NCBI GenBank assembly: GCA_930367215.1
Contig: OV884059.1
Coordinates: 16,826,945-16,890,944 of the forward strand
Source: Pollenia angustigena
Lineage: Eukaryota; Arthropoda; Insecta; Diptera; Polleniidae
Reading direction: 5' to 3'
DNA length: 64,000 bases
This document shows, in pieces, positions 20,062 through 64,000 of the stretch. The position numbers and the translations under genes are program-made. Within the stretch, counting starts at the first letter, position 1, and every line of letters begins with the position of its first letter. The notes beneath the pieces are model-generated. The model saw only the letters and a list, made by a program, of their open reading frames with translations. It did no database searches and was not told the origin of the DNA.

Positions 20062-20600
20062 TATATATAGGGCTACCAGACGGCGTTAGGAAAAAATCGA
20101 CTATAATCAGGAAATTAAAAATTTTGAATTTTTATAGTTATTATTTTATTTTATTTTGTTATTTCTTTATTTATTTTTATTTATTTTATCTTATTTATTC
20201 ATGGTAATACAAATAGCCATTTGGCCAATAAAATATATAACAAGTAATTTCATAACTATGACGTAAGAAATAATTCAATATACATATAAAAATAAGTACA
20301 ACTATGAGATTTCATTATCTAAAACAAACATATGTATACCAACATCATGACAACCCAACCGACTCCCATACATTATAGCGAGTAAAGGATAAAACAAGAG
20401 AAGTGAAGCCCCAAAAATTATCAGTGATTACAAAATTGAGCTATGTGAATTAAGAAACACACAAAGGTCACGCTTAAAGACTGCAAAAGACATGGCGAAA
20501 GAAATTAGATTTCTAGGCAAAATATTCCATAACCTTTATATTAAAAAACATAACAAAGCATTACAGTGTTAATGGTAGGTTATCAGTGAGATAAAAATTA
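20062..20600. other. AT-rich stretch without gene
   Basis: No supported coding sequence, repeat partner or structure; includes a TTTATT/TTATTT-rich tract at 20,140-20,200. Confidence 0.4.
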
Positions 20601-20742
20601 GTGCCGGTTCACACACGTCAAGTTTGACTCGTCAAGTTTTGAGTATTTAGGAGAGAGGGGAAAATAGAATGCCATTTCTTTGCGCTTCTCTTCTAAAAGC
20701 TCAAGACTTGACGAGTTAAACTTGACGTGGGTGAACCGGCAC
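20601..20742. mobile_element. PIF/Harbinger-type MITE, TSD TTA
   Basis: 142 bp, inverted ends GTGCCGGTTCAC continuing into ACGTCAAG, flanked by TTA (20,598-20,600 and 20,743-20,745). Confidence 0.9.
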
Positions 20743-21125
20743 TTACTGCCCGTCTATACCAGAGATAACTATTGCAGTAAATGTCAAAATTATGTCTACA
20801 TTAAAGACAGCCATTTTTTTTTTACATGTTTATTGCCGGCAATTTATGTTGCAATAATTGTTAATGCATTTTCGTTTACTATTATTGCTAATATAAAATG
20901 TCAAATTTGGTTGTCAATTGAAAAAGAAGCAAAAAAGAAAAAAAAATAGAAGCAAATTGTGGGAGAAAGAAATAAAATTTGAGAAATGGTAGCAAATTAT
21001 AATTGAAGTGAAAGAAATTAATTAAAGAATTGATTAAACACTAAAATAAAATTGCAAACATTATTTTTATTAATATAATTTTTTTCTTATTCGATCTTTA
21101 TTATTAAGTTTGAGTTCTTTTTTAT

Positions 21126-21252
21126 CATCCCAATTATGAATACAAATTCCCAGGGAGTTTTTTCCCTTTTCCCATTTTTACAGTTGAATTTATATAGGAA
21201 ACATGGGAGAAGGGAGAAAACTCCCGGGGAATTTTTATTCATAATTGGGCTG
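21126..21252. mobile_element. MITE with CAKCCCAATTATGAATA ends, TSD TAT
   Basis: 127 bp with 17-bp inverted ends and TAT on both sides. The uninterrupted site is in copy 1 near 7597-7612 (GAGTTCTTTTTTATATAAAA). Confidence 0.8.
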
Positions 21253-21372
21253 TATATAATAATATTAATTTTACTTTAACAAAAAAAAATTTAATAAAAT
21301 TAATATTTTTATATAAAAAACGACCTTAAGCATAAACAAATTAATATACATTTAAATAATAAAGTCGAATAA

Positions 21373-21488
21373 CGGCCATTTTCACCAAGTTCAGTTAAAA
21401 CTAACTTTCCATTAAAGTTCCGGTTACCAATATGTTTTGACAGCTATAACCGATAGTTAATTATAACCGAACTGGGTGAAAAGGACCG
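21373..21488. mobile_element. PIF/Harbinger-type MITE, TSD TAA
   Basis: 116 bp, ends CGGCCATTTTCACC / GGTGAAAAGGACCG, flanked by TAA on each side. The matching empty site is at about 7718-7730. Confidence 0.85.
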
Positions 21489-22069
21489 TAAGAAAAAATT
21501 TATATTGATAAAAATAGTTTTTGCAAGATGGCGTCAGTTTTTACACTGCATTTTCTTCCTTGATTATTTTCAAATTATGAGTTAACATAAATACGTTTTC
21601 CCATGCCTTTAACATAAGCTAAGCAATAAGAAATATTGCTCTTTTATTTTGCCGACGTTATTGCCAACTTGCTGAGATATTTATCTTTAATGTAGACTTA
21701 GGGTTATGTAAGAGGATTCGGTGTTTTAAAATTGATCTTACTTGAGGGTTACACGATCAAGTTTTGGCTATCAAGTTTTAATACACTCACACTTTTTTAC
21801 CAATACACTCATACTTTTAAAAATTGATATGAACTTGCCTCTAAAATTCTCTTGCCAGTGAGTGTATCAATTTTCGTTCAAGAAAACATCTTATTACAAA
21901 TCTTTTGAAGTTGTTTTTGTTTTTTTTCACAAATATTTTGCCGGCAAAAGCTGAAGTTCTTTTTTTTTACAAATTGTTGCGGGAATTTTAAAATTTCAAC
22001 TAAAAACCTAAAAAAATAGTGAAATATGTTTATTAATAAAATTTATTTATAAAATTAATAAGCAAAATG

Positions 22070-22258
22070 ATGTTCTGCGATTCATAGAGCTGTACAGAAG
22101 CCATGAAATTTTATGAATCTTTCATCATATAGGCGAAATGATTTGAAAATAAAAGCCTACGAGTCTATAGCTTCTGAAACAAAAATGCCAGTGGAAGAAG
22201 TAAAGAAAAAAATAAAGTCCCTTCGAACACAGTGCAGAAAAATCAAAAGTGGAAAATA
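22070..22258 (+). pseudogene. MADF-like DNA-binding domain fragment, frameshifted
   Basis: After an AG acceptor, the reading FIELYRSHEIL then, with a one-base deletion at about 22,115, a YRRND segment, KAYESIA and VKKKIKSLRTQCRK fit the MADF domain (Trp/Leu core, YRND-like middle, helical end with a basic patch), followed by TAG. MADF proteins are DNA-binding partners of Harbinger and other transposases, so this is probably the leftover accessory gene of the surrounding TIR element. Confidence 0.6.
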
Positions 22259-22363
22259 GCAAAACATTTTGAGTTGTTTTCTCGGCGACGACATCTTTCA
22301 ACTTGCGTGCAGCCTACGTCACAGCTGTCAACTTTTGCATATTTTGACAATCAGTATATGTTT

Positions 22364-22505
22364 CATAGCGTCTTCACCTGACAATTTTTTGTCATACCAA
22401 ACGTCAAACTTCATATTAAAAAAACGCTGACAAAAATTTTCGAGTTTTTTTTATATAGACTTTGACGTTTGGTAAGACAAAAAGTTGTCAGGTGAAGACG
22501 CTATG
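22364..22505. mobile_element. MITE with CATAGCGTCTTCACCTGACA ends
   Basis: 142 bp, nearly perfectly palindromic for more than 40 bp from each end (CATAGCGTCTTCACCTGACA and its inverse). The target duplication is not clear. Confidence 0.85.
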
Positions 22506-22665
22506 TAAAAGACTATCAAGAAAATCTTGATCGTGTGGCTGCACTGTTAAAAAAATCGACAAACTAAAAAATCTTAAAAACTTCGGCAATCTGGCAAAGG
22601 TATTTTATTGTTTACATATTTTATGAAAACAAACTAAAAAATTTGCAAGAGAAAAAGTTAAAAAT

Positions 22666-23998
22666 ATGGAAATTATCGCAGCCATTACATGTGCAGAAAT
22701 GATGGTAAATCAATTTTTGGATTCATCCTCGTCATCTGACGAGGAAGAAATGTGCAATATATTTAAACGTAGAGGTCAGTCGCGTGTCAAAGGATTTGTA
22801 GAGAATGTCGTCCATGCATATTCCGAGACAAGTGTAAGCAAAAAAGCATCTAAGTATATTGATATACATACAGTATAATTAAAATAAAAATTTCATTTAT
22901 TTAAAAAAATTTAGTTTAAAAAGAAATTTCGCATAAGCCGAGAAAGTGCCACAGAACTTATGGAAAAGTATTTCCAATCCTGTTCAAAAAGAACGTACAA
23001 AGGAGGAAGACTACAGACAAGTGTTGAAACACAGATTTTGTGTTTTTTATGGTAAGCTTAAGAAAATCTAATGCAACAAAAAAAATTAATTATTTAATTT
23101 AAGGTTTAGTGGAAACAAGACAACTTTTCGGGAAGTTGCCAACATTTTTGATTTGTCATTGTCAAATGTCCACAGATGCTTCAAAAACGTCTTAAATTTT
23201 CTAGTGGATGATATGGCGCCAGAGGTAATTAAATTCCCTCGATCAGAAGAAGAGAAGGAAAAAGTTGCACAGGATTTTGAAAAGGTTAGATGATATAATA
23301 ATATGTTTACATACTTTTACTTCATAGTCAGAGTGTTTTAGGTTTCAGGGATTCCCAATATTTTAGGATGCATTGATGGCAGCTATATAAATATTAGGAC
23401 ACCAGCACACAAAATTCGTTCTACATACGCAAACAGACACGATGGAGTGTCAATAACTCTCCAGGGTGTTTGTGATTCAAACTTAAAATTCTTGGACGTA
23501 TTTACTGGTATTCCCGGCAAAATTGACGATGCACGTGTGTTAAAACTTTCATTCATTGGGAAAGAATTATCTTATTTATGTTCTCCCAAATATTATTTGC
23601 TTGGCGACTCGGCATATCCTCTAAGGGAATACCTTTTGACGCCATATAGAGATAATGGAAACTTGAGCGATTCACAAAATAATTTCAACAAAAATTTTTG
23701 CCGAACGCGAGTCAAAATTGAACAAGCATTTGGTGTACTTAAATGCCGTTTCCGTCAATTAATGCGCATGGACTTCCATAATGTGGAAACAATGGCGAAA
23801 TTTGTTGTTGCGTGCTGTGTCCTTCACAATATTTGTATTGTGCGAAATGAAAGCCTACCAGAAGAAGTTCATGATACTGAACTTGGCAATAATAATGACC
23901 ATCCAGTGGAAAGCGATAGAAAAGAAATCCTGCAAACACAATTAGGCCAAATCAAAAGGGATGAAATAAAAAACATTTTGTTCAGGTCTTCAAATTAA
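22666..23998 (+). CDS. PIF/Harbinger DDE nuclease (pair A), catalytic triad intact
   Basis: Exons 22,666-22,833, 22,915-23,051, 23,104-23,284 and 23,342-23,998, joined through GT/AG introns of 52-81 bp with matching phases, give 380 aa. Exon 1 is acidic with a Ser/Asp/Glu run. Exons 2 and 3 hold the helix-turn-helix-like HARBI1 N-terminus. Exon 4 holds the nuclease: GCIDGSYI (D174), LLGDSAYPL (D251) and KIEQAFGVLK (E289). All three acidic residues of the HARBI1-type DDE_Tnp_4 nuclease are present and no frame is broken, so it may be a recent or active transposase. It faces a Myb/SANT gene 0.5 kb away, the usual two-gene Harbinger layout. TIRs were not found. The donor of intron 3 (AAG|GTTAGA) is weak. 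Nuclease and Myb proteins of this superfamily act together in the nucleus to bind and cut the element ends. Confidence 0.87.
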
Positions 23999-24041: not shown

Positions 24042-24139
24042 TTATTTTAAAATAAAAATTAACAATTTATATTTCTTATTTATACCTATTATAGTTTATT
24101 AAAAAGGTTAAATAAAATAATTTAAAATAATTAAATTGT

Positions 24140-24245
24140 TATATAGTTTGTTGAGCTTGAGGTTTCCTTTTTTATATAAAAAATTTTTAATATAAAAAAG
24201 AAAACCTCGTGCTCAATAAATTACACAACAATTTAATACAAAGGA
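24140..24245. repeat. Palindrome between the two genes of pair A
   Basis: GAGCTTGAGGTTTCCTTTTT is repeated inverted as AAAAAGAAAACCTCGTGCTC (about 24,152-24,215). It resembles the internal palindrome of the dispersed repeat at 7590-7705. Confidence 0.6.
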
Positions 24246-24509: not shown

Positions 24510-25436
24510 CTAAGACAATTTCTCAAGAATTTGCTTAAGAACGTTTTGCATGTTCCTAACCACTTCAATCTTCTCTCTGTGGCGTCTCTCTCTAGCTTCT
24601 TCTTTTTTCTTAGCTATTTCTAATAAGGTGTTATTAACATTAACATTAAGCTTTTTTCTTTTTTTTCTATTTGGGATTGCATTTCCTACATTTTCTTTTT
24701 TTATTTTTTTTTGGCTGCTGATTTGAATCTCTGGTTCTATGGAATCATCGAGCGAACATATTTCATTTAATTCTTCTTCAAATTCCACTGCTTTACGTTT
24801 TGCTCCCGATCTGCTATTTTTTTCTATATCCAGCTTCTTCCTTTTTAAAACCGTTTTATATCTTTCCTCACACTGCTTAGGCGACATATTAGGTATTTCT
24901 TTGGAAATATGTATCCACATTTCTTTCTTATTTTTGAACTTATTCATCGGGCCAATATCTGCTAGACATATGCGGTATAAGTCCAACAATTTCTTCGTGT
25001 CTCCATCTGTCCAATCTAGAAACAGAAAAAAAAACTCTGTTTAGGGTGCACAAAGCAAACAGTTTTTGTTATTACACATGAGGCAATTGTTGTAATGACT
25101 ATTTTCATAACGCAGACGATTGGCAGAAAGAGCAACAAAGCTGCAAACGAGCCAACGGTAAAAGCAACATGCCTTGAGTTATTTTCGGCTGCAAACAAAG
25201 TGGATGCTTAAGATGACAGCGCAATAGCAAACATGTCCATTTTTGTATACATACATACATATGTACATAAAATCCGCGAGAGTTCACATCGTGGGCACAG
25301 TTGATTATTATTCTTCGAGTATTTTCGCCATAAGCGCAAGTTCACCTTAAGCCCCCAAAATTTTTGCAAACGTTATTATGTCTAATTTGTACTTACAATG
25401 AACGGTTTTCGAGAAAATTGAAATTTCGTCATTCAT
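24510..25436 (-). CDS. Myb/SANT-like DNA-binding protein (pair A)
   Basis: Exon 1 25,436-25,397 (ATG, 13 codons plus one base) and exon 2 25,015-24,510, with phase-1 GT/AG junction, give 181 aa. Residues about 15-70 form a Myb/SANT-like domain: WTDGDTKKLLDLY, GPMNKFKNKKEMW, then SPKQCEERYKTVLKRKK. A basic, nuclear-localisation-like middle follows, and a C-terminal helix KKKEEARERRHREKIEVV..MQNVLKQIL, probably a coiled coil. The same domain order and the same phase-1 junction before the Trp occur in pair B. In Harbinger elements this second ORF binds the termini and brings the nuclease into the nucleus; that role is inferred by family. The first exon is short and is the least certain part. Confidence 0.8.
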
Positions 25437-25626
25437 TTTGTTCTTAAAGAAATCAATAAACAAATTTTGGTTTATGTATTTTTTTTTATATTTCGAGGAA
25501 CAAACTTTTTGACTTGTTATGTATTTTTTTTTTTTTAATTTGAAGAACAAACTTTTTGTCAGCTGTTGAAAACAGGGCAATCCAATTTTGTGTTTTGTTC
25601 TCGTCAAATAACAAATTGCATTATTA

Positions 25627-26110
25627 CAGGGTTGGCAAGACATTTTATACATGCACCTTTTAACAAGGTGGTATTTTTTTGTAGAAAAGAAAACACCATA
25701 ATGGCATAAGGCATTGAACTTTTCGCCCGTATGAATTAACAGTGTTGATGGTGCCCCGTAAAATATGTACATATGTAGGTGACGCAAAAATTTTTAAATT
25801 CGGAAAAGTTGGCAAAAATGGCAAAATTAGGGAAAATTTTTTATATTTCAAACAAGGCAATAAATTGATTGATTAAAAGTACCTAAAACTAAAAGGAGTG
25901 TCAAAAATTTGTTAAAAATTGCTAAATTAGCGGAATTTTAAAAAAAAAATTGGTAACAGCGGTATGATAGAAAAGCCTAATTTTTATTAAAAATCTAAAA
26001 AGCTTTTAAGAACCAGAAAACTTACAGTAGAAAATCGCTTCTATCGTAAACATGGCTAAAATCCCGAACAATTTCAAAATTTGAAACAACCCCTTAAATA
26101 AATTTAAAAT
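25627..26110. repeat. hAT-like sequence related to 44,920-45,180
   Basis: CAGGGTTGGCAAGAC at 25,627 looks like a hAT end. The following 450 bp (ATTGAACTTTTCGCC, GGTAACAGCGGTATGATAG and others) align by eye with the inside of the hAT element at 44,479-46,146. The right end is not found. Confidence 0.5.
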
Positions 26111-26701
26111 CGGTAAAATATCAATGAAAGTGAGAAAATGAAAAACAACGAATTGAAGATAAGACAAGCCCTCAGAGATTTTACCTAGTTCATTGAAGAA
26201 TTGTATACCTTGTAATTTTTTTTCTCCGACTTAGTAGTCTTGGAAAATGACACTTAGATGATGTGCCACTGGCTTCAGTTTTAGCATTCTTACGGATTTA
26301 ACAAAAATCTAGTCGTTAGAATTAGTTGCCCCCAATTTCATCCTTTACTTATAAGATATTGATGAATTACCAGGGGGGGGGGGGGGTCTACTCTCTATAA
26401 ATACGGGAAAACAAATTTTTGTGGTTGATTTTTAAGGACGATAAGATGTCCACCGATTTTAATGAAACATACGTACATACATCGTTTTAAAGGAATGTGT
26501 GTGTAGATATGCATTATATATTTTTATTCTAAATTTTTTGAATTAAAGTGTTTGAAAAGCGTTTTAATTTATCTTACAGACATTCGTACAAAGTTAGGTG
26601 AATAGTGCATTTTTGCCTTTCTCTTAAAATGGGTACGTTTTTGTTGTATCACGCACAGGTTTTCTCGAAAGTAAATGTCGAGTGGTTGAATTTCGGACAT
26701 C
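26111..26701. other. AT-rich stretch, probably intronic or intergenic
   Basis: No gene or repeat recognised apart from a run of 14 G at 26,373-26,386. Confidence 0.4.
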
Positions 26702-26721
26702 GGGCGATTCTAGTAGATATA

Positions 26722-26927
26722 CAGCGGTGTTCTTGAAATCGAAAACGCAAGATCTTTAAACTTTGGTTTTTAATAAGATTTCTGTAATAAATGAATTCCA
26801 TTACAAATATTTTACGAATATTTCTCTATTAAACCGAATTTCATAACAAAAATTATAAAAATTTGAATAAAAGTGTATTAAAAACAACTTCCAAATTCTT
26901 GCGTTTTCGATTTCCAGAACACCCCTG
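26722..26927. mobile_element. hAT-like MITE with CAGSGGTGTTCT ends
   Basis: 206 bp with about 30-bp inverted ends (CAGCGGTGTTCTTGAAATCG and the inverse ending AGAACACCCCTG). It lies in a GATA microsatellite, so the target duplication is ambiguous. Confidence 0.75.
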
Positions 26928-27116
26928 ATAGATAGATATCTTGAAATACGAAAACACACAGTCGCCTTTTTAACTTAAAGGGCCAAATAAAGTACACAAG
27001 CGGGGGTTAATTAAACAAATGAAGCATGTTTGTTCGAAAATTAAAAATTTATTAAAATTTGTAATTAAGATATAAATTTTAATTTTCATCCAATTAAAAT
27101 TTATTTTTTATAAATA

Positions 27117-27707
27117 CATATCGTCACCTAAAAGACGAAATAACCTATTTGCAGTTTTCAGAAGTTAACAGGAGAGGGAAAAAACGTTATAAAATTGGAA
27201 CTATTAACGATATTGAAACGAAAATTACACATTTTGATTACAATGAAACCAGTAATATATATCGGTTGAGAAAATTTTGTTTTTCTAATCACAGCTTATG
27301 TTATGACACTTAGGTTTTTTGGAATTGTAAAAATCTGAAACCAAATAACCTATCTGCAGTACTAATTAGTATGAATAAATAAAAATTTCTTTATACACAT
27401 GAATATTATATACATTAATAATTACAGTATTAGTTTCTTTTACTGGTTTAAGCAAAAACAAGTACTTAATGTATGTTTAAATTACACTATGCAACAAAAT
27501 TAAACTTTTATCGTGATTTTTGATGATTTATTTTTCTCTTTTTTTGTGCGTAACGGTCCTTTAGGTACAAAAACTTTGTAATTTGTAATATTACATGTTC
27601 AAAATTTTGCACACATATGCGTTATGATATAGGGAATAAAAATCCATAAAAAACTAAATTTTGAAATTTTTGCAGATAGGTTATTAGGTCTTTAAGATGA
27701 CGATATG
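27117..27707. mobile_element. TIR element with CATATCGTCAYCT ends
   Basis: Inverted ends of about 38 bp, beginning CATATCGTCACCTAAAAGAC and including ATAACCTATTTGCAG. It ends 53 bp before the fumarase exon. TA next to the ends would fit a mariner/Tc1-like insertion, but this is not decisive. Confidence 0.65.
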
Positions 27708-27760
27708 TATGTATGTTCCTAAATTTGTAATGTTGCATTTGTATTTAAATTTAATTACAG

Positions 27761-28886
27761 GTTATTAGCAATCGTGCCATTGAATTGTTAGGTGGTAAAT
27801 TGGGCTCAAAAGATCCGGTTCATCCTAACGATCATGTTAACAAATCTCAAAGTTCCAATGACACCTTCCCCACTGCCATTCATATTTCTGTTGCATTGGA
27901 ATTAAATAACAATCTTAAGCCAGGCATTAAGATTTTGCGTGATGCTTTAAAAGCCAAATCAGATGAATTTAAAAATATCATTAAGATTGGTCGCACACAC
28001 ACTATGGATGCCGTACCCTTGACTTTGGGCCAGGAATTCAGTGGTTATACACAACAAATGTCTTATGCATTGGATCGTATTGATGCCTGTTTGCCACGTG
28101 TTTATGAATTGGCTTTGGGTGGTACTGCTGTAGGAACTGGTCTTAATACCCGCATTGGTTTTGCTGAAAAGTGTGCTGCTAAAATCGCTCAATTGACGGG
28201 ACTGCCATTTGTTACTGCCCCTAACAAGTTTGAAGCTTTAGCTGGACGTGATGCCATGGTAGAAGTTCATGGTGTTTTGAATACAATTGCTGTTAGTTTA
28301 ATGAAGATCGCCAATGATATTCGTTTCTTGGGTTCTGGTCCTAGATGTGGTTTGGGTGAACTTATGTTGCCAGAAAATGAGCCTGGTAGCTCAATTATGC
28401 CTGGCAAAGTAAATCCTACACAATGCGAATCCATGACCATGGTTGCTGCTCAAGTTATGGGGAATCAAGTTGCTGTTACTATTGGTGGATCTAATGGTCA
28501 TTTTGAGTTGAATGTTTTTAAACCTTTGGTAGTTTCTAATGTTTTGCGTTCTATCCGATTATTGTGTAAGTAACAACATTTTTTTTACAAAATTACTTAT
28601 ACAAATTTATTAAAATATTCTAGCTGATGGCAGCCGTACCTTTACTGCAAATTGCGTACAAGGCATTCAAGCCAATACCGAACGTATTAATAAAATCATG
28701 AATGAGTCCCTTATGTTGGTAACTGCTTTAAATCCTCATATTGGATACGATAAGTCCGCTAAAATCGCCAAGACTGCCCACAAGAATGGTACCACATTAA
28801 AAGAAGAAGCAATTAAATTGGGTTACCTTACTGAGGAACAATTCAGCCAATGGGTCAGACCTCAAGACATGTTGGGACCTAAGTAA
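27761..28886 (+). CDS. Fum1: Fumarate hydratase (class II fumarase), last two exons
   Basis: Exons 27,761-28,565 and 28,624-28,886 (58-bp intron, TTGT|GTAAGT and TTCTAG|CT) encode 355 aa to the stop, against roughly 460-500 aa for the whole enzyme. Fumarase interconverts fumarate and malate in the mitochondrial TCA cycle and in the cytosol. Visible signatures are SSNDTFPTA (substrate site), [16 protein letters not shown], and [11 protein letters not shown], the aspartase/fumarase family signature carrying the mobile SS loop with the catalytic Ser; the C-terminal domain ends [12 protein letters not shown]. The exon starts at [12 protein letters not shown] after TTAATTACAG, so at least one upstream exon with the N-terminus and any mitochondrial presequence is missing; I found none in the preceding 27 kb. 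Frame and conserved residues are intact, so it is either a gene with a very long intron or a captured fragment. Confidence 0.93.
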
Positions 28887-50387: not shown

Positions 50388-51306
50388 ATTTTTCATCCGA
50401 TAAAAAAATTTTAAAATAATTTTCAAAATTAAAAATTTCATAAACGATTTTTATAGCTTAATAATAACAAATAATTTTAATAACGAATCGGATTCTAATG
50501 CTGTAATTTATAATATACTGTATCTTGTTGTATTAAAAAGGCACTAAATAAATACAAGTTCAAATTGTTTTTCTTTCACTTGTAATGAAATATTCAATTT
50601 GAAACACAAAAATACTTTCATTTCATATTTATTTATTTTTATTTTTCTTCGTTCGCAACAGTACAGTACAGAATTAGATTTTAGTCGAAGTATGACTTAT
50701 ACTGTAAAATTAATCTTAATTATAAATAGGTAAAAAGTCCATATATGGGAACAAATCTATAACATAAAACTAATTGGCGTTAAAGTTTTATAAATTAAAC
50801 AATCTATTTAAAAAAAGTTTAGAAGACTTTTAAAATCAATAAAATACGAAAAAAATTACTTTCATACATACTTATATACAAAATTATTCAAAATCTAAGA
50901 AAATCATATAATTTAAATAATCATTACTAAGAAATCCCGAAATTTTAAAATTCAACAAAAACTAAAAATTAATATTGAACGTGTTTATTTCCATTTCGTT
51001 TCTTTCATTTTAGAAAAAAACTTCAAGGTGGCAGCACCATTACACAAAGTTATACACATGCTTAACTACCCTAAAAATACAAGTCTGTTTATTCAGCAAA
51101 TAACCCGCTTTCAAAAATTATTTTCAACTGAAATTTTGTTTTTAACAACAAGCGCGGACGGTAAAAATTATACTCTGTTGTAAAATAGAAAATTGTGTTG
51201 TTTGATCGTAATAAAGTTGTTTTTAGGGATACACACATTCAAAGGATAGTAAAATCAATACAAGTGCATTTTTCATATAAAAGTTTAAATTAAATTAAAA
51301 AAGAAA
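50388..51306. other. Upstream flank and 5' UTR of the feo-like gene
   Basis: AT-rich; no TATA box stands out and no repeat was recognised. Confidence 0.4.
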
Positions 51307-53460
51307 ATGTCTAACTACGAAGATGAAAAACAAGCTATGCAATTACTAACACAAAAATATGTGGATAAATTATCAGGCATTTGGCAACAAATATTTCATC
51401 CCGATACCTGTCGTGAAAATTTACGTAAACTCGTTGATCACGCCACATTTTTCTATGGCGAATTAGTGGATGAGTCGTTGTCGCGCAAAAGTTTTATTGA
51501 AAATGAAATTAATGATTTGAAAAAAGAAGCTGAAAATTTGAAAAGATTACTAAAGACGGATGTACACTTGCCCAGTTATGATAATAATGATGTGCCTTTA
51601 TTAATTGTGCAATCCGAATTAGATAAAAGTTTGGAAGATCTTCGGGAACAATTGCGTTTGCGCAAAGAACAAATATGTGAGCTGTTGTTAGAACAAGAGG
51701 CTTTGTGTGAGGAGTTGGGTGAGCCACCACGTGCTTTACTGGCAGATCCTTTACCCACGGCAGAAGATATTGAAAATTTTCGTAAGCACTTGGAGTCCTT
51801 GAGAGAAGAACGAGTAGAACGCATGAATAAAATCTCTTCAATGAGAAGAGAAATTAAAAATTTTCTTCAAATATTGGAATTCAATGTAAATACTGAACAT
51901 GAGGATCGTCTCTTAAATCACCGTCAAATAAAAATGAACAAAGAAACCTTTGAGGGTCTTAAGCGAATACATGATTTATATGGCGGCCAGGTGAAAGAGT
52001 TGAAAGAAACTATACAAGGCATGCGCAACAAATTGGATACTTTATGGGATCGTTTAAAAACATCACCTAACACTCGCAACAAATTCAATCGCTATAAGGA
52101 CTATAATCAACATACATACGATGTTTTCTACAGCGAATTACAAAGGTGCGAAATTTTAAAAAGCCAAAATATCAAACTATTTGTCCAACAGATACGTGAT
52201 GAAATAACAAAGTGGTGGGAAAAAACCTTAAAGTCGGATGTTCAAAAAAGTCGATTTTCAAATTTTACCTCTACATGTTACACAGATGATTTGTTGGTTT
52301 TACATGAAATGGAATTGGAGGATTTGAAATTGTTCTATGAGACAAACAAACAAATATTTGAATTGTACGCGGATCGAAATATGCTTTGGGACCGTATGAA
52401 TGCTTTAGAAGCAAAAGCCTCTGAACCAGGAAGATATAATAACCGCGGTGGGCAGCTGCTAAAGGAAGAAAAAGAAAGAAAAACAATAGCAACCAAATTG
52501 CCGAAAATTGAACAACAAATCTGTGAGCTAGTGGGACAATACGAAGAAAGAGATCATGTTCCATTTTTAGTATATGGTGAAAATATAATTGATGTAATGG
52601 CAGCTCAATGGGATCAAAAACGCCGTGAAAAGGAATTATTACAATCGGCAAGAAAAAATGCTGGTAAACCAACGGCAAATTCAGTAACCAAAACAAATTC
52701 CACTATAAGAACTCCTTTATCGGTTAAGAATGCTAGCTCTGTAAGTTCTCTACGAAAAACTCCTTCTACAACTTCTTTAGCTTCCAATGCAGTATCTAGC
52801 CAAAAGCGTAAATTAAACCCGTCCGATCGAATTACACCCCTTGCAAAACGTTCCCTAATGCATGCCCTAAATAGTCCTAGTGTTTTTCTAAAACCATGCT
52901 CTAGTAAAACCAATATACAAAATTTCAAAACCGGCACTTCACACACCATCAACAAACACAACAAATCGGTAACAAATTTTAAATCGCCTTTAAAAAAATC
53001 TAAACTTATTGCCACGACCATACGCCGGCGAAGCGGCAGGCATAGTAGCGGTTTGAAAAAACGTCGCTCTATTAATAAGGGCTCTTCTACGAAAACTATA
53101 CCAAAAATTGTTGTAGATAAATGCCAATCAGATGGCTATAGTACAGATTACAATGCTGACGACACTTACGATTCATTTCAAAAATGTATAGAGCCTGCTT
53201 CACGTTCTTCCATCATACAAGATGTTACTCTAAATAGTGATTCTTCTCGTACAAAACGTATGCAAAGAATTGTCGATGATGAAAATATAAAATTGGCCAA
53301 ATTGCCAAGGCCACGAGTGGTGAACCGAACTCCCTCTAAACAACATGCTAGTTTTTCGAATATTACACGTACTACTGCACACAACAATCATCATTCACCC
53401 TCTTCTTGTGCCACAACTGGACGTAAATTGACCACAAAAAACTTGCCTATTATAATTTAA
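51307..53460 (+). CDS. feo: Ase1/PRC1/MAP65 spindle midzone protein (fascetto-like)
   Basis: One uninterrupted frame of 717 codons; ATG with A at -3. PRC1-family proteins are homodimers that crosslink antiparallel microtubules in the central spindle and are needed for cytokinesis. Residues about 10-330 are long charged helices (dimerisation and rod), e.g. RKEQICELLLEQEALCEELG. Residues about 340-460 form the spectrin-like microtubule-binding domain with the family signature YNNRGGQLLKEEKERK at about 377-392 and QWDQKRREKE at 440. From about 465 the tail is basic and Ser/Thr/Pro-rich, as the regulated, disordered tails of the family, with TP and SP sites such as RTPLS and RITPLAKR that could be Cdk sites. 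Drosophila has a second family member as well, so feo versus its sister is not decided. The absence of introns might mean a retrocopy. Confidence 0.92.
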   Translation: MSNYEDEKQAMQLLTQKYVDKLSGIWQQIFHPDTCRENLRKLVDHATFFYGELVDESLSRKSFIENEINDLKKEAENLKRLLKTDVHLPSYDNNDVPLLIVQSELDKSLEDLREQLRLRKEQICELLLEQEALCEELGEPPRALLADPLPTAEDIENFRKHLESLREERVERMNKISSMRREIKNFLQILEFNVNTEHEDRLLNHRQIKMNKETFEGLKRIHDLYGGQVKELKETIQGMRNKLDTLWDRLKTSPNTRNKFNRYKDYNQHTYDVFYSELQRCEILKSQNIKLFVQQIRDEITKWWEKTLKSDVQKSRFSNFTSTCYTDDLLVLHEMELEDLKLFYETNKQIFELYADRNMLWDRMNALEAKASEPGRYNNRGGQLLKEEKERKTIATKLPKIEQQICELVGQYEERDHVPFLVYGENIIDVMAAQWDQKRREKELLQSARKNAGKPTANSVTKTNSTIRTPLSVKNASSVSSLRKTPSTTSLASNAVSSQKRKLNPSDRITPLAKRSLMHALNSPSVFLKPCSSKTNIQNFKTGTSHTINKHNKSVTNFKSPLKKSKLIATTIRRRSGRHSSGLKKRRSINKGSSTKTIPKIVVDKCQSDGYSTDYNADDTYDSFQKCIEPASRSSIIQDVTLNSDSSRTKRMQRIVDDENIKLAKLPRPRVVNRTPSKQHASFSNITRTTAHNNHHSPSSCATTGRKLTTKNLPIII

Positions 53461-55787: not shown

Positions 55788-56025
55788 CAAGGTATATTTA
55801 TAGCAGGTAGCCGCGAGATTACAACAATTGTACAATAAAACAAACAACAGGGCTTTTTATTGTTGTTATGTGATACGAGCTGTCAAACAGCAAAGGGGTT
55901 GAAAAGAGACAAAAGATAAAGACAAAAAACTTTACTATGGAACATTTGACAGTTTGTATCACAAAACAAGCAAATAAAAAATAACCAGCTGGCTTTCTGA
56001 GACTACCTGCTATAAATATACCTTG
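55788..56025. mobile_element. hAT-type MITE, CAAGGTATATTTATAGC family, copy 2
   Basis: 238 bp; flanks GTATGTAC (55,780-55,787) and ATATGTAC (56,026-56,033) match at 7 of 8 bases. Confidence 0.88.
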
Positions 56026-56033
56026 ATATGTAC

Positions 56034-56370
56034 ATACGAACGACTCAAGTTGTATGGAAGCAAAATTCGTGCTCGCCTTTTTTAAGATGACATTTTAAAT
56101 ATTTCGGCACCAGCTTTTTGACCTCTCGTGAGCTAAACCAGTTTTAAAAATTTATATATTTTTGCATGTTTTGTTAATTTAAGAATCTTTTTCCTTACCA
56201 ACATATACAAATTGGGTATCGTAAGAAAGGTTTTTTTTTATATACAGTTGGACACTGTTGTGCTGCTGCTGCATAAAAAGCGTTGCATGTAACTTGAAAC
56301 GTAGAACGCAAGTAAGGTTAGAAAAGCATGCGCTGCGTGTAGGCGAAAATGCGTGGTATGTACCTCCAGC
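56034..56370. other. Unassigned flank between MITEs
   Basis: No gene; the open frame crossing this region joins unrelated MITE sequences. It ends with CCTCCAGC (56,363-56,370), the target duplication of the next MITE. Confidence 0.4.
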
Positions 56371-56600
56371 ACAGAGCACACAGAGGCGTCACGAGACAGA
56401 AAATATTGGGTTTTTTCTGTCTCTTCAAGCTGCCCTTTTTGGTTTTGATTATGCAATTTGTGTTGATAGTAGCCGCCTGTTTTTACACATTACCACTTCA
56501 CTAGCAAAAAACGTTTTTTTTCTTTTTCTTCGAAAGCTGCCCTCGCAAATGATTAAGCCATTTTTCATACGTCACTTTTTTCATCTCTCTATGCTTTGTG
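56371..56600. mobile_element. hAT-type MITE, CACAGAG family, TSD CCTCCAGC
   Basis: 230 bp, ACAGAGCACACAGAG and inverse-like CTCTCTATGCTTTGTG ends, flanked by CCTCCAGC on both sides (56,363-56,370 and 56,601-56,608). Inverted relative to the copy at 56,728-56,973. Confidence 0.85.
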
Positions 56601-56629
56601 CCTCCAGCTCATTGGTGTCCAGCCCATAC

Positions 56630-57104
56630 CACAATTGTGGAAATAAATTCTCACACATTCTTCACACGCATTCTTACGCTCTTTCAATTAGTCCACGAGA
56701 GTACACAATTCAGTCGTCGATTACCAACACAAAGTATACAGAGATGAAAAAAGTGACGTATGAAAAATGCCTAAATCATTTGCGAGGGCAGCTTTCGAAG
56801 AAAGAGAAAGAAAACGTTTTTTGTTAGTGAAGTGACAATGCGTAAAAACAGGCCGCTACTATCTACACAAATTGCATAATCAAAACAAAAAACGCAAAAA
56901 GGGCAGCTTTCGAAGAAAAAGACAGGAAAAAACACAATATTTTCTGTCTCGTGACGCCTCTGTATACTCTGTGATTACCAAGCGACGAGTGCACATGCGG
57001 CGGATGCTTACATATTTTTTGTATTTTTGTTAAGAATATTTGTCTCTATTCACTAATACTAATAAAAAGCAATACAACCACAATTTAAATTTTGGACGTC
57101 ACTG
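56630..57104 (-). mobile_element. Repeat starting CAGTGACGTCC, copy interrupted by a MITE
   Basis: Inverse of 18,726-18,960; the match is broken only by the 246-bp MITE at 56,728-56,973. Confidence 0.75.
56728..56973. mobile_element. hAT-type MITE, CACAAAG family, TSD ATTACCAA
   Basis: 246 bp, ends CACAAAGTATACAGAG and CTCTGTATACTCTGTG, flanked by ATTACCAA (56,720-56,727 and 56,974-56,981). The paralogous empty site, with a single TTGGTAAT, is at 18,848-18,855. Confidence 0.93.
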
Positions 57105-57133
57105 CTCCAGCTTTATTGCTACATAGTGAGAAC

Positions 57134-57364
57134 CATGGCCCAATTAGTAGGTCTGCGCGCAACTACAACAATCCAACAAAAGAAAAAACAACACGCATTT
57201 TGTTTGTGTAAAAAATGATAAAGATGTCAAGAACAAAGGCAATTGTTTGTGTAAGAAATGGTAGAAATGTCAAAAGCAATTGTTACAAAAACAATTGCAC
57301 GTATAAAAAACAACTCTGCAAAAAATCAGCAGGCGTTTCAAGCAGACCTACTAATTGGACCATG
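57134..57364. mobile_element. hAT-type MITE with CATGGYCCAATTAGTAGG ends, TSD GTGAGAAC
   Basis: 231 bp, inverted ends CATGGYCCAATTAGTAGGTC, flanked by GTGAGAAC (57,126-57,133 and 57,365-57,372). The right-hand duplication is also the left-hand one of the next MITE. Confidence 0.9.
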
Positions 57365-57372
57365 GTGAGAAC

Positions 57373-57649
57373 CAAGGTCTATCTAATAGATCTGCGCAAG
57401 AAGCCAGATGTTTACTTGGTTTATTCTTCAACGACGTCAAACGTTGTTTACATTTTCCTTATACATGTGTATTTTTGTTTACGTTTTTGGTTTTTTGCCA
57501 CACATACATACACACAAATCACATTTTTTATTTTGTTTTCCCTATGTAGTAGTAAGATTTTGACAACGGCGGGGAATTTTACACAAACAAAATGTCTGTT
57601 GTTTTTTGTATTGTTGTAGAAGTAAGCAGACCTATTTTTATAGGCCTTG
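57373..57649. mobile_element. hAT-type MITE with CAAGGYCTAT ends, same TSD GTGAGAAC
   Basis: 277 bp, ends CAAGGTCTATCTAATAG and inverse of CAAGGCCTATAAAAATAG, both followed inward by an AGRTCTGC-like motif as in the adjacent MITE. Flanked by GTGAGAAC (57,365-57,372 and 57,650-57,657). Confidence 0.87.
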
Positions 57650-57922
57650 GTGAGAACCATGGTGGAATAAGCAGGTGGCATCGTTACGGCAACAAATACA
57701 ACATTACAGAACAAGAATATTATGTGGCGTTAATACTACAATACAAGACCAATATTAAAAAAAAAAAACAAAATTAGCTCAGCTGTGCTTTCACCACTAC
57801 CTGTAAAGTTCGCCTTGATTTTAAAGGGTCAAAAAAAAAAACGACACAAGCAGTTTGACAACAAAAGCTGTGTATGTATGAATATTAATTTTTTTTTTAA
57901 ATTTTTCATATGTTTGTTTGGT

Positions 57923-58507
57923 GGGCGATTCTACTCTAGACAACTTTTAACATCAATTTTCAAATCACACTATTTAACACTTTTTGATGCAAATTTAAAG
58001 TAAAATATCTATATTTTATAATAATATAATTTTTTTAGACGTAAGCTTAAATATAAATTTGTTGTGCACTTCGAATCATTAAGATTCATAGATTTGGCGC
58101 GAACAAAAAATTCATTGAATGTTGCACCCGTCATGGCTTAAAGAGAAAATTTCTTATTATTGGATTATATTTCTCTACGATGTTTGATTTGATAATCATC
58201 GTCTCATATCTCATCTTTCACAATAAAAAAAGAATAATACAATAAAAGTTTAAAAATTAATAGAGTTTTGTGTTTTTGTGGTATGATCTTATGTAAGTGG
58301 GCTGATTTGGTTGCACCCGTAATGCACTTTAAAGCTCTCTCGTGGCTATTTGATCGTTTCATATAAATTCTTGTAAATAGATAACAATAGTATATAAAAA
58401 AAAATGTTACCCCTTCTAGAAATAACTTAATTGCAAATGTGTTTCTTTCTACTAGTAAAAGACGTTTAAAGCGTCTAAATGTTGCACCCGCCAGAATAGA
58501 ATCGCCC
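57923..58507. mobile_element. Element with GGGCGATTCTA ends
   Basis: 585 bp, GGGCGATTCTA at the left and TAGAATCGCCC at the right, with TGGT on each side as a possible 4-bp duplication. Its right 145 bp recur at 29,184-29,331. GTTGCACCCG motifs repeat at about 58,122, 58,312 and 58,481. Confidence 0.65.
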
Positions 58508-58960
58508 TGGTCTATTTGGCCCTTTAATTTATTTTATAGCAACTTTTAAATATTTTAAATGCCAACAAAGAAATAATAAAAAACGAAAAGTTTGATTGAA
58601 AATCGCTAGATTTGACGAGAAAATAGCTAATTTGCAACAGTGATAAAAGTTTACATGAATTTTGTCCCACGGTTGGTGTTTTAATGTGATTTTGCTGCAC
58701 TTTTCTAAATTTAATTTGAACTATAAAACGCTGAATGTGCATTACTTTTTGAGATGTTAAGCTGTCAAAAGTTAATTCCGTGAAATCATAAAAAGGTAGC
58801 ATTTTGTAAATTTTTGTGCAGCATTTTATTAGGACATAAGAGAATATATAAAATATTCTTTATTTTGTATTATTGCAAATAATTAAAAAAATATTTGCAG
58901 TGATAAGAATAAATAAAAAATACCTTGCGACCCTAACAAGCATTTAAAAAATTTCTAGAG
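58508..58960. other. Upstream flank of the triple Myb gene
   Basis: Putative promoter and 5' UTR. CTAGAG|GTAAGTACG at 58,955-58,969 is a good donor, and TTTTGTCTTCAAAG at about 59,004-59,017 a possible acceptor, which suggests a 5' UTR intron of about 57 bp. Confidence 0.45.
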
Positions 58961-59055
58961 GTAAGTACGTAGTTTTAAACTTGCATTTGTAAATTTTCTC
59001 ATTTTTTGTCTTCAAAGAAGAAAATTTGTAGAGCTAAATTATAAATAAAATAATA

Positions 59056-60490
59056 ATGGATATAAAGATTGAAGACGATATAGATGTTGCTCCAACTGAA
59101 ATTATGTTCGAAACAGTAGAAATGCCCACTCCTTGTAAAAATATTGCTATCTGGTCAAACAAGGAAACGAAACAGCTCATGGAGCTCTATAAAAGTTTTA
59201 TAATGGAAGTTGGTCCTGAGAAGAGATTTAGACGCAAAAAAGATATGTGGGGTGAAATTTCCACACATATATCCACGGATATTTCCTTCAAAAGTTCAAA
59301 ACAATGCCTAGAGCGATTTAAAACTTGTCTTAGAAGAAAGAGAAAGGGCGTTAAAGAGTCAAGCACAACGGGTGATAAGAAAAAAAAGTACGATTCTGAA
59401 GCAGAAGTCGAAACTGATTTTGAGATAATAGAAAAACTTAAAGGGGAATATGAAACTGACGATAGTTCAGCTCCTTTTAAACAAGTTCAACGTAAGTAAT
59501 TGAGCCCCATCATTTGTATTTTATTTCTAATTTATAAATTTATAACAGTATGGACAGACAGCGAATCCAAGCAGCTAATTGAACTATACAAACGTTTAAT
59601 AAATGATGTTGGTCCGATGAAAAGATTTAAACGCAAACTAGATATGTGGTCTGAAATTTCCTTACAAATTGGAAATAAAACTTCTAAGCAGTGCGAAGAA
59701 CGATTTAAGACTGTACTAAGAAGAAAAAGAAAAGACAATGAAATGGCCTTCATATCACAAGCTGAATCGGAAAACGAAAATACATATCAGATTATTAGAA
59801 ATCATAAAAAATACTACGAAGACGTCAAGAATATACCACCATTCAAGAATGTTCGAAGTAAGTTATTTAGTAGATATGAGTAGGTATAACTTTTATTTAA
59901 TAACATAAAAAATTACAGTATGGTCAAACAACGAAACAAAACGACTAATGGAACTTTATAGACGTTTTATATTAGAAGTTGGTCCCGAAAAAAGATTCTT
60001 GCACAAAAAAGATATGTGGGTTGAAATTTCTTCTAACTTTACAAATAAAGATCCTAAACAGTGTCAACAACGCTATAACACTATTAAAAGAAAGAAAAAC
60101 CTTGCAAACCTCTATCGATTGAAAGCAAGAAGAAGATCCATCGATTTTAGAGCAAAAAATAGATTTGAAACACATTTTAAAATAAGAAAAATACATACAT
60201 TACAAAACGAAAAATTTTTAAGTGATAAAGAAACGATTGCCCCAGAAAAGAATAAACTTTCTTATACACAGGAGAGTAAATTGACTACCACATCGAATGG
60301 AGAAGAGCTTAGTGCACAGCGAACACATTCTGTAAGCCCTCAGGAGAAAGAGGAGCTTACTATAAGCAAGACCTTATTTAAAATAGCTGCGATGAGAGAA
60401 GAAGCAAAAGAACGTCGTCATAAAGAAAAAATGGAAACAATGAAAAATATGCAAAATATATTACAACAAATTTTGGATAGTAAAAAATAA
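59056..60490 (+). CDS. Triple Myb/SANT protein of Harbinger origin (pair B)
   Basis: Exons 59,056-59,491, 59,549-59,857 and 59,919-60,490, joined by 57- and 61-bp GT/AG introns in phase 1, give 438 aa. Each exon carries one Myb/SANT-like domain (about residues 32-97, 147-205, 250-305): W[ST]xxExKxL[MI]ELY, then VGPxKRFxxKxDMW, then SKQCxxRFKTxLRRKRK. The third is the most diverged at its end (PKQCQQRYNTIKRKK). The C-terminal helix KERRHKEKMETMKNMQNILQ matches the end of the pair A Myb protein, so the ancestral gene had one domain and exon duplication gave three. The second intron junction falls at the same point, just before the Trp. It faces the catalytically altered nuclease gene 240 bp away, so a joint role in DNA binding or gene regulation is likely, but is inferred. 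No stop or frameshift interrupts it. Confidence 0.87.
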
Positions 60491-60655
60491 AACTTACAAT
60501 TTTAATTATCTTAATCCAAAGTATAACTCCTAAGCTATCTAAATATAAAAATTTGTTCTCCCATTCTGCTTCCTATTCACTTCTATTCAGCACATTAAAA
60601 TACATAAACAAATTTTTTTTTATTGATGGCTTACATTACATTTCTTATAAAAAAA

Positions 60656-60661
60656 TTTATT
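60656..60661 (-). terminator. Polyadenylation signal of nuclease B
   Basis: AATAAA on the minus strand about 70 nt after the stop at 60,732. Confidence 0.5.
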
Positions 60662-60731
60662 GATGCGAACTGCATGCTGATGGAATTTTTTTCTTAAACT
60701 AGTAAAGATTAAGTACAAAAAAAAATACATT

Positions 60732-62209
60732 TTAAGTTTTTGTTCTAAATAATAATTCTTTAAGTTCGTGTCTTTTCATTAAACCTAAATCTGAGAGAAA
60801 TTCGTTGGTTTTAACAGAAGTCAAAGAACTGGTAGAAAGTCTATCAGATACATCGGTGTAAATTTCACCACTAAGAACATCTTCCCTATTAATACAAATA
60901 TTATGAATAACACAACAAGCAATTATGTATTCAAACATTACTTCTACATTATCGAAGTGAAAATATTTTAACTGGTGGAAACGACTTTTAAGAATACCAA
61001 AGGCATTTCTAATTTTAACATGAGTTCTTTCAAATTTTATGTTAAAATATTTTTCAGAATCGCTTAAGACGCCATTATTTTCATATGGTATAATAAGATT
61101 TTCCCTAATTGGACATTTTAAATCTCCCAACAAATGGTATTTGGGGAAGCATAATTTGGGTAAATCTTTTTCTAAAAAGGAATCGTTAATTTCTTTAGTT
61201 ATACCAGTTTTCACATTCAAAAATCTTCTCTTTGAATCACATATTCCTCGCAGGTATATACATGAACCACCACATTGTTGGACTTGTTTTGGCAATTTAA
61301 CCGTTAAAAAACTATCAGCAACACAACCAAGAACATTTGGAAATCCGGCAATCTAAAATATAACAAGAATTAATAAACTATCATTAAGCTTGTTGGAAAA
61401 ACTTGCCTGTTCAAAATCTTTGGCAACAGCTTCTTTTTCAATATATGTGCTTGGTAACTTTATAACATCAGGTGCTAATACATCTACCAGAAATTTTAAA
61501 ACACTATTAAAGGACTGATATATAGCTAACCATGTTGTTTTAAATACTTGTGCAACATCTTCCAAATTAACTTCATTAGCGGAAAACCTAAAATAATAAT
61601 TCAGCCAAGATAATATAATATTTTTGATTTTTATAACTATAACTAGAAAACGTTAAATTTTATTCACTGAAGGGTTTTTGAAATTACAAACTTACCATAA
61701 AAAAGAGAGTATATTTGTTTCGACTGTTGATTTTTGGGTACTCTCGTTAAAAGGACTTTTACCATACCATAAGGAATACTGTTCCATCAAATATGTAGCA
61801 GTTTCACGGCTAATATGAAATTTTGTTATAAACTAAAAAAAATTATATTTTATAATGCTTTTTTATGTTCATTCTATATAATTAAACTTACATCAGTTTC
61901 GGACAGTGAATTCATAAATGTATTTTCAAAACTTTCTGGTTCTTGTTTGATGTTATCGTCTAATACTGCATTCAATTCGGAATTTGCTGATAATGAATTA
62001 ATTTTTTCGTTTTCAATATAGTCTCTTTTTTGGTTATTACTATCGTTAAATTTTGTACTCGATTGTTTATTTTTCCTAATATTTTCTTTTTTTCGCTGTT
62101 CTTCGTTGCATACCATTGCAAACATTTCATCATCTTCATCCGATGACGAAGAAGACTCCATTAAGTCATTTATTAACTTAAGTGCACATAAAAGTTTGAT
62201 TCTTTTCAT
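60732..62209 (-). CDS. Harbinger-derived nuclease-like protein, catalytic residues lost (pair B)
   Basis: Exons 62,209-61,892, 61,832-61,696, 61,587-61,407 and 61,352-60,732 give 418 aa. Exons 2 and 3 have exactly the lengths (137 and 181 bp) and phases of nuclease A, and exon 1 has the same acidic SSSSSDED motif, so the genes are homologous throughout. Exon 4: the first catalytic Asp is Ala (GCVADSFL, residue 224, against GCIDGSYI); the second Asp is kept (LLGDLKCP, residue 289); the Glu is Arg (VKIRNAFGILK, residue 327, against VKIEQAFGVLK). A few residues are also missing between the first block and CIYLRGICDS. Frame and splice sites are intact, with intron 3 using a GC donor (CAG|GCAAGT). 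Nuclease activity is not expected; the N-terminal HTH-like part and the Myb-interaction surface may be retained. Probably a domesticated host gene. Confidence 0.87.
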
Positions 62210-63094
62210 TTTAAGTTGGCTTAAGAAAAAATTTTTTATAAGTCCGTTCTATTTTTTCAATATTTTATTAAGAAACCTTTAAGGAAAATACAAATAAAAA
62301 AAAAAATTTTAAAAGTCGTTTTCATCGGCAATCAATAGCTCCCGAGTTATAAGCCTATAGAGTGGAAACTTTATTCTATGTGAGTATGTATGTATCTTTT
62401 TAGCTGAATGAAATACCTTTCGAATGAGATAAAGCCTTAAAAGCCATATTAAAATACTAAGTCAAAAGTTTTGTATCCTCTGTAATCCTTTTTGCAATAG
62501 GACACACATTGTGGAGGGTAAGCAGAAACGATTTAGCTTGCTAGAAAATCGGCATCGGTTTAAATTTTTTTAGTAAAATCATAAAAATCCGCCTTTAGCA
62601 CAAATTTTTGTTTCTTGATCAGTTTTACTTACATATGTATCTAATTTCCATTTTAAATTGTTTCATGATCCAATCTTTAATAATTTTAACATGAATTGTT
62701 TATTTGCCTTGTTAATGATTTTGACACCATTGATATTAAAACATAATACAAAACATGGTCCAATTGGGCCATGATGATGATAGGTGTTGGTTTTTCTTTT
62801 GAAATGTTAACAAATTCCCAGAAAAAGTGAGATGTAAAAGCTACATTACATAGTACATATTTCCATTTTCGCTGAAAATTTGCTCACCAAATCTAAATCT
62901 AGCTTTCCAAAAATAAAACTAATAAATCAAAATGTACATACTTATGTGATTACTTGGTAAGTGGTTCTACAATTCCAATCAACGCCTTGATGAAATTTGA
63001 ATTGATTGAAATTTGTTTCTGGAAGTTGTAATCAGGGTTGTCAGATCGATTTTGACCTTTTTCGCCAAATTCAATGCCAAAAATCGCCAAAGCC
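62210..63094. other. Flank upstream of nuclease B
   Basis: No gene seen. CAGGGTTGTCAGATCG at about 63,026 repeats the hAT-like motif of 463-476. Confidence 0.45.
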
Positions 63095-63342
63095 CAAGGT
63101 ATATTTATAGCAGGTAGCCGCGAGATTACAACAATTGTACAATAAAACAAACAACAGGGCTTTTTATTGTTGTTTTGCGATACGAACTGTCAAAGAGCAA
63201 AGGGGTTGAAAAGAGACAAAAGATACAGCAAAAAACTTGTTTACTTGTTTACTATACAAAATTTGACAGTTTGTATCGCAAAACAAGCAAATAAAAAATA
63301 ACCAGCTGGCTTTCCGAGACTACCTGCTATAAATATACCTTG
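63095..63342. mobile_element. hAT-type MITE, CAAGGTATATTTATAGC family, copy 3
   Basis: 248 bp, perfect 8-bp duplication CCAAAGCC (63,087-63,094 and 63,343-63,350). Confidence 0.93.
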
Positions 63343-63359
63343 CCAAAGCCTTTACTTTT

Positions 63360-64000
63360 ACAGTACGTTTACATTTGACAGTACTGGCAAGACAGTAAGA
63401 AAATACATATTAGCAAGGTATATTTATAGCAGGTAGCCGCGAGATTACAACAATTGTACAATAAAACAAACAACAGGGCTTTTTATTGTTGTTTTGCGAT
63501 ACGAACTGTCAGACAGCAAAGGGGTTGAAAAGAGACAAAAAAACTTGTTTACTTGTTTACTATACAACATTTGACAGTTTGTATCGCAAAACAAGCAAAT
63601 AAAAAATAACCAGCTGGCTTTCCGAGACTACCTGCTATAAATATACCTTGCATATTAGTTTCCAAAAACACTACTAACTGTCTTCGTGACGTAGGCGTCC
63701 AGACAGTTGTTAAGACAGTTCACTTTTAAAAATAAGTCAAACGTGAATGTTGCTGTTAAGTCCAGCTAAACGTGTTTTACATGAACTAAACAAACTTAAA
63801 AACAGCTTAAAATAACTATATTGTGTTAACAATCATAACACTAAACTAAAATATAAAAAATCAAAGCAAAATATGTTTAATTTTTTTTACAGTTTGATTT
63901 TTTTCTCTTTTGCTAACAAAACTTCAGATTACTGTTAGCAAATGTCAAATCACTGTCAAATTTTACTGTCTGCAAAATTTGCTAGACAGTAGACAAGCCA
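63360..64000. mobile_element. Element with CAGTACGTTTACATTTGACA end, copy 2, cut by the window edge
   Basis: Inverted relative to 19,321-20,061 and continuing to the end of the window. It is interrupted by a hAT MITE (63,414-63,650) where the other copy has a Harbinger MITE. Confidence 0.7.
63414..63650. mobile_element. hAT-type MITE, CAAGGTATATTTATAGC family, copy 4
   Basis: 237 bp, perfect 8-bp duplication CATATTAG (63,406-63,413 and 63,651-63,658). Confidence 0.93.

Follow-up and report, generated by a model that had tools for sequence, protein, structure and literature searches.

A candidate co-domesticated PIF/Harbinger pair with a nuclease that looks catalytically dead and a triple-Myb partner

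Co-domestication of the two proteins of PIF/Harbinger transposons has already been published for insects, with at least four such events in print (DPLG7/DPM7, APLG1/APM1, APLG2/APM2 with APLG2b/APM2b, and LPLG2/LPM2), and the pair of genes described here, which we call pair 2 (nuclease gene nuc2 and Myb gene myb2), is therefore probably a variant of a known phenomenon (PMC9710019). The first-pass annotation of this DNA had cited vertebrate HARBI1/NAIF1 and PIF-like genes of Drosophila as evidence that both partners can be domesticated; the point is sound, and these insect cases are nearer than the vertebrate example. In them, as in pair 2, the transposase gene and the Myb/MADF gene stay adjacent and TIRs are absent, and in three Anopheles species a diverged second pair is found in the neighbourhood, much as a related pair (pair 1; nuc1 and myb1) is found near pair 2 (PMC9710019). 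Unlike pair 2, however, they are not credited with a multiplied Myb/MADF domain or with triad loss in the available portion of that account (PMC9710019). HARBI1/NAIF1 resembles what we propose for pair 2 in that both partners are domesticated, and there the nuclease depends on its Myb-like partner to reach the nucleus (PMC9710019).

Two Arabidopsis pairs provide further comparisons. ALP1, which has DGA in place of DDE, occurs with Polycomb complex 2 (PMC4671723). Like pair 2, ALP1/ALP2 unites a nuclease lacking two of the three triad residues with a Myb-derived partner, but ALP2 is devoid of the DNA-binding tryptophans and the two genes lie apart (PMC4671723, PMC7282668), whereas two tryptophan columns are kept in all three repeats of myb2 and the genes of pair 2 are adjacent. 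HDP1/HDP2 is similar to pair 2 in having a triad-less nuclease and a Myb-derived protein in which the tryptophans are retained (PMC7282668). It differs from pair 2 in its plant lineage, and the tie of ALP2 to DNA runs via Polycomb rather than through its Myb domain. HDP2 has one Myb domain only. The vertebrate genes HARBI1 and NAIF1 lie apart, and the triad of HARBI1 is intact. Among the matches listed in a limited search of open-licence literature, none was a Harbinger-derived protein bearing three Myb domains. The aspects of pair 2 that look new are the triplicated Myb partner and the linkage of an intact and a dead pair. If confirmed, this would be an insect co-domestication uniting triad loss, an exon-triplicated DNA-binding domain, and a nearby triad-intact sister pair, and it would allow a direct test of what a non-cutting Harbinger nuclease contributes, a question that is also posed by HARBI1/NAIF1 and the Drosophila genes.

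We built and translated gene models for pair 2 at 59.06-62.21 kb of the window, which is the whole 64-kb stretch of DNA that was analysed. The two genes are convergent: nuc2 (minus strand, 62209-60732) encodes 418 aa in four exons and myb2 (plus strand, 59056-60490) encodes 438 aa in three exons, with zero internal stops in either and with both frames open across all five introns. The features of pair 2 are as follows.

58961..59031, plus strand: candidate 5'UTR intron of myb2, from motifs only (GTAAGT at 58961, TAG ending at 59031)
59056..59491, plus strand: myb2 exon 1, with N-terminal leader, Myb/SANT repeat R1, and linker (translation and Pfam)
59549..59857, plus strand: myb2 exon 2, with Myb/SANT repeat R2 and linker; 309 nt, a phase-1 intron on each side
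59919..60490, plus strand: myb2 exon 3, with Myb/SANT repeat R3 and C-terminal tail; stop at 60488-60490
60491..60731, no strand: spacer of 241 nt between the facing stop codons of nuc2 and myb2; nuc2 AATAAA at 60661 and 60624 (minus strand)
60732..61352, minus strand: nuc2 exon 4, encoding the catalytic domain; D1 replaced by A224, D289 kept, and E replaced by R327; two 6-aa gaps relative to nuc1
61407..61587, minus strand: nuc2 exon 3, 181 nt, equal in length to its nuc1 counterpart; followed by a GC-AG intron (61353-61406)
61696..61832, minus strand: nuc2 exon 2, 137 nt, equal in length to its nuc1 counterpart (translation)
61892..62209, minus strand: nuc2 exon 1, ATG at 62209; acidic SSSSSDEDDE stretch (translation)

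Pfam searches matched nuc2 to DDE_Tnp_4 (PF13359) with an E of 2.8e-10, covering only model positions 52-158 of 158, and recovered three Myb_DNA-bind_6 stretches in myb2 (5.9e-20). DDE_Tnp_4 homology is present in both nuc2 and nuc1, and a Myb-family gene stands beside each nuclease, which is indicative of PIF/Harbinger descent; models, open frames, and domain matches thus agree on the two convergent multi-exon genes of PIF/Harbinger layout that the first-pass annotation had described. Its statement that the nuclease keeps its frame, its four exons, and its splice sites stands for the frame and the exons, while one of the three nuc2 introns, intron 3, has a GC donor (GC-AG, CAG/GCAAGT); the other four introns of the pair open with GTAAGT (GT-AG). 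The start given for the locus, 58961, falls on a GTAAGT that could be a 5'UTR donor (motif only), and the coding start of myb2 is at 59056. We considered chance joining as an origin of the pair 2 models and ruled it out, given the equal lengths of exons 2 and 3 in nuc1 and nuc2 and given that GTAAGT, found at four of the five donors, occurs just 31 times in the window (both strands). The two proteins differ in charge: myb2 has a pI of 9.6 with five runs of at least four K/R, and nuc2 has a pI of 5.8 with zero such runs and one short KRIK.

The catalytic triad is altered in nuc2. Residue 224 is Ala (GCT) for D1 and residue 327 is Arg (AGA) for E, as had been read earlier, and the middle D is kept at 289; a mobile PIF/Harbinger transposon has an intact DDE, which is present in nuc1 and broken in nuc2. 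The change in the catalytic domain is not limited to these two residues, since in the alignment nuc2 is without two six-residue stretches found in nuc1, one in the YANRHD region and one at ARVLKL, and GDSAYP of nuc1 reads GDLKCP in nuc2. Both motifs, YANRHD and ARVLKL, are conserved among PIF nucleases, and the two stretches were presumably lost by nuc2 rather than gained by nuc1. Judged from these residues, nuc2 looks unable to cut DNA, a loss that we infer; D225, which adjoins A224, may conceivably replace D1.

When the 64-kb window was searched by tblastn with nuc2 and myb2, pair 1 was the sole relative recovered. Its features are given below.

22666..23998, plus strand: nuc1, 380-aa nuclease with D174, D251, and E289; exons 22666-22833, 22915-23051, 23104-23284, and 23342-23998
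24510..25015, minus strand: last exon of myb1, with one Myb domain, C-terminal tail, and phase-1 acceptor
25397..25436, minus strand: candidate first coding exon of myb1, 40 nt, from a pattern search for GT[AG]AG donors across 3 kb

Longer candidate starts of myb1 occur at 25643, 25652, and 25772, all using the same donor as the 40-nt candidate. The DDE_Tnp_4 model is covered by nuc1 over positions 1-158 of 158 (E 3.6e-31). Homology of pair 2 to the pair at 22.7-25.4 kb, also claimed beforehand, is borne out by 44% identity between nuc1 and nuc2, by the matching exon lengths, and by 33/62 identical residues between R2 and the Myb domain of myb1. Exon 1 of the nuclease is weakly kept (20/55 identical), exons 2-3 have 49/106 identical residues, and exon 4 has 92/206; the intron positions in the nuclease are the same, and both pairs are arranged tail to tail within 40 kb. 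Over aligned lengths, R1, R2, and R3 are 35%, 41%, and 36% identical to myb1, the C-terminal tail has 22/41 identical residues, and of the three repeats R2 shows the smallest number of non-synonymous differences to myb1. Where the DNA of the two pairs matches strongly, it does so in coding exons, with no clear common non-coding stretch. Pair 1, at which TIRs were not found and whose nuc1 has an open frame with a full triad, could be domesticated as well. Between its two 3' ends is an imperfect palindrome of 108 bp (24130-24237). A Lyase_1 exon (27755-28570, 2.1e-87), presumably of fumarase, could serve as a synteny anchor for pair 1, and one long frame of the MAP65/ASE1 family (PRC1-like; 51289-53460, 8.7e-130) as that for pair 2. 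We also considered whether the Myb partner is better conserved than the nuclease, which would be contrary to the usual rule in transposons (PMC9179366); this holds for R2 when compared with exon 4 and is weakened by the 35-41% over aligned lengths.

In myb2, there is one exon per Myb repeat and the introns separating these exons are in phase 1; exon 2 is 309 nt long, so its duplication preserves the frame. Among the linkers, L1 and L2 are clearly related (0 of 2000 shuffles as good) and L2 and L3 weakly so (24 of 2000), while a relation of L1 to L3 was not supported (662 of 2000). Three tryptophans are needed for DNA binding by Harbinger Myb proteins (PMC7282668), and only two tryptophan columns are common to R1, R2, R3, and myb1, which is why DNA binding by myb2 is put forward conditionally here.

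The Myb repeats diverged from each other under purifying selection. Their omega is 0.18 over 61 codons (likelihood ratio test against 1, p = 4.6e-8), an intragenic rather than between-species value that spans the time since triplication, possibly including a mobile-element phase, with gene conversion among repeats left aside; pairwise values are 0.21, 0.08, and 0.36 (p = 1.5e-4, 5e-8, and 0.02, respectively). Between nuc1 and nuc2, omega is 0.10 by maximum likelihood (p = 7e-30; 0.12 in exon 4 and 0.07 in exons 1-3), which is a paralogue comparison and a mean of two branches with no outgroup, and hence not a measure of constraint on nuc2 alone. Counting gave 0.28 for the same comparison (dN 0.456, dS 1.64), with synonymous sites saturated. 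We then simulated neutral decay by substitutions only, with the present coding sequences, nuc1 codons taken as ancestral, and an AT-rich equilibrium. The joint probability that D1 is changed, that E is changed by at least two steps, and that nuc2 has no stop peaks at 1.6e-5 among nine distances, a figure which is a guide and not an exact probability because nuc1 codons were assumed ancestral and both residues were picked beforehand. At 0.05 substitutions per site, the mean number of stops is 3.6 in nuc2 and 4.2 in myb2, and both genes are stop-free with P = 0.0004.

Around pair 2, TIRs with a TTA/TAA duplication were not found between 56000-59056 and 62209-64000 at four settings, nor around pair 1 between 20000-22666 and 25015-27700 at four settings, in searches that had no positive control and that miss drifted ends. 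With any 3-bp duplication allowed, pair 1 gave none (20500-22666 against 25015-27500), and for pair 2 (from 56500) a single site, 58916/63425 with ATA, appeared at two of the four settings. This is within the chance range (resampled flank means of 0.20 and 0.33, maxima of 2), and the right arm of the site is the end of a hAT-like MITE. The absence of terminal repeats around the pair, as noted in the first-pass annotation, thus holds in the sense that none stands out beyond chance in flanks of ~3 kb and 1.8 kb.

Taken together, we consider it probable that pair 2 is a co-domesticated PIF/Harbinger pair, in which the dead nuclease acts as a scaffold held on DNA by the triple-Myb partner for a regulatory purpose. 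The coding regions of nuc2 and myb2 are both intact and no TIR/TSD was detected within the flanks searched (~3 kb and 1.8 kb), as in known co-domestications, and the triad is dead yet the frames are clean, so that pair 2 was probably adopted by the host, a domestication suggested from the window alone. Of the earlier proposal of a host DNA-binding or regulatory complex, the co-domestication part is favoured by the open frames, the dead triad, the lack of a standout TIR, and the Myb constraint; the complex of nuc2 with myb2, its nuclear location, its DNA binding, its regulatory role, and its function for the host are what we infer beyond this. A DNA-bound complex with the nuclease as scaffold would be the simplest reading. 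On this reading, the two genes have been neighbours since an old insertion, after which the element ends were lost and both proteins were kept under selection. The active site of nuc2 would have been lost and its protein turned into a scaffold, and myb2 would supply the DNA-binding domains and basic clusters resembling import signals. In-frame triplication of the Myb exon with its phase-1 introns may have provided higher affinity or one protein that touches several sites, and the C-terminal tail of myb2 would hold the dead nuc2 on DNA, in the manner of HDP2/HDP1 and ALP2/ALP1 in Arabidopsis. In Harbinger pairs and their domesticated descendants, the N-terminus of the nuclease contacts the C-terminus of the Myb protein (PMC7282668). 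In pair 2, the Myb tail and exons 2-3 of the nuclease resemble those of pair 1, exon 1 of the nuclease much less so. The Myb-like partner is required for nuclear localisation of the nuclease, and a predicted nuclear localisation signal is present in one partner only in 33 of 42 species (PMC9710019). A PIF-derived MADF protein is described as regulating its own gene and a neighbouring gene via a histone acetyltransferase (PMC11893794).

Several other explanations have to be weighed against co-domestication of pair 2. Pair 2 might be a regular Harbinger copy inactivated only recently, with the catalytic residues struck after insertion and the stops yet to come. A young copy would also have open frames and kept splice sites, other recent repeats are close by, and a 64-kb window cannot reveal copy number; nevertheless, the best joint neutral probability is only 1.6e-5 even before the two in-frame gaps are counted, and ends with a 3-bp duplication, which are expected of a young copy, were not seen beyond chance in the flanks searched, so we regard recent death as unlikely. 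The open frames and the constraint on the Myb repeats in the absence of an intact triad could also come from a mobile family that encodes a dead nuclease. Its proteins would be under selection for the sake of the element, say as a repressor or a helper, and an intact nuclease would mobilise it, for example nuc1, the triad-intact relative ~35 kb off. Mobilisation needs ends, however, and none were found in the flanks searched at pair 1 or pair 2, which makes such a family quite improbable.

It is possible, though we lean somewhat against it, that both pairs are host genes that arose by local duplication of an older domesticated pair, with catalysis lost in one of the two copies; this would refine co-domestication of pair 2 rather than exclude it. 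Two related tail-to-tail pairs within 40 kb, with the same nuclease intron positions and with ends found at neither, are what local duplication would leave, and it has been proposed for the neighbouring APLG2/APLG2b of Anopheles at 57% identity (PMC9710019). On the other hand, the strong matches between the pairs are in coding exons with no clear non-coding match, and pair 1, with its full triad, could be a transposon copy. Least credible to us is that the two pairs form one domesticated system in which the intact and the dead nuclease form a complex with the single-Myb and the triple-Myb protein and the dead subunit works as a pseudoenzyme to steer or restrain cutting; if true, such a system could hold Harbinger elements in check or act at a host locus.

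Broader searches were made with both pairs and with the window. Using phmmer, neither nuc2 nor nuc1 matched a solved structure at E up to 10. A profile of nuc1 and nuc2 gave three matches to KRR1 and DNA polymerase I (E 1.1 to 1.5), which we took as chance, and a Myb profile gave six weak Myb-type matches (best E 0.002), with no single stretch passing alone. Rfam and tRNA scans of the 64-kb window returned nothing, and scans of viral and prokaryote contigs returned 171 and 122 pattern stretches, respectively, with zero relatives.

The window carries a number of other repeats. Four MITE copies of 237-254 bp, 87-94% alike, lie at 63095-63342, 63414-63650, 55788-56025, and 10634-10887; their ends (CAAGGTATATTTATAGCAGGTAG) and 8-bp duplications, which are perfect at 63095 and 10634 and were judged by eye to be perfect at 63414 and to have a single mismatch at 55788, mark them as hAT-like. 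At 18184-18765, a weak Ty3 capsid-like match (4e-4, under the curated cut-off) is perhaps a remnant of a retroelement gag. A repeat at 56370-57104 is ~96% like 18723-18944 and is interrupted by 56728-56973, of which an inverted copy, 88% alike, lies at 56370-56600, an arrangement resembling nested recent insertions. Further, 63655-64000 (to the window end) and 19383-19740 share a repeat (86% over 366 columns), 63360-63412 matches 20009-20061 at 98%, and there are several more repeats in the vicinity of pair 2 whose copies are at least 85% alike.
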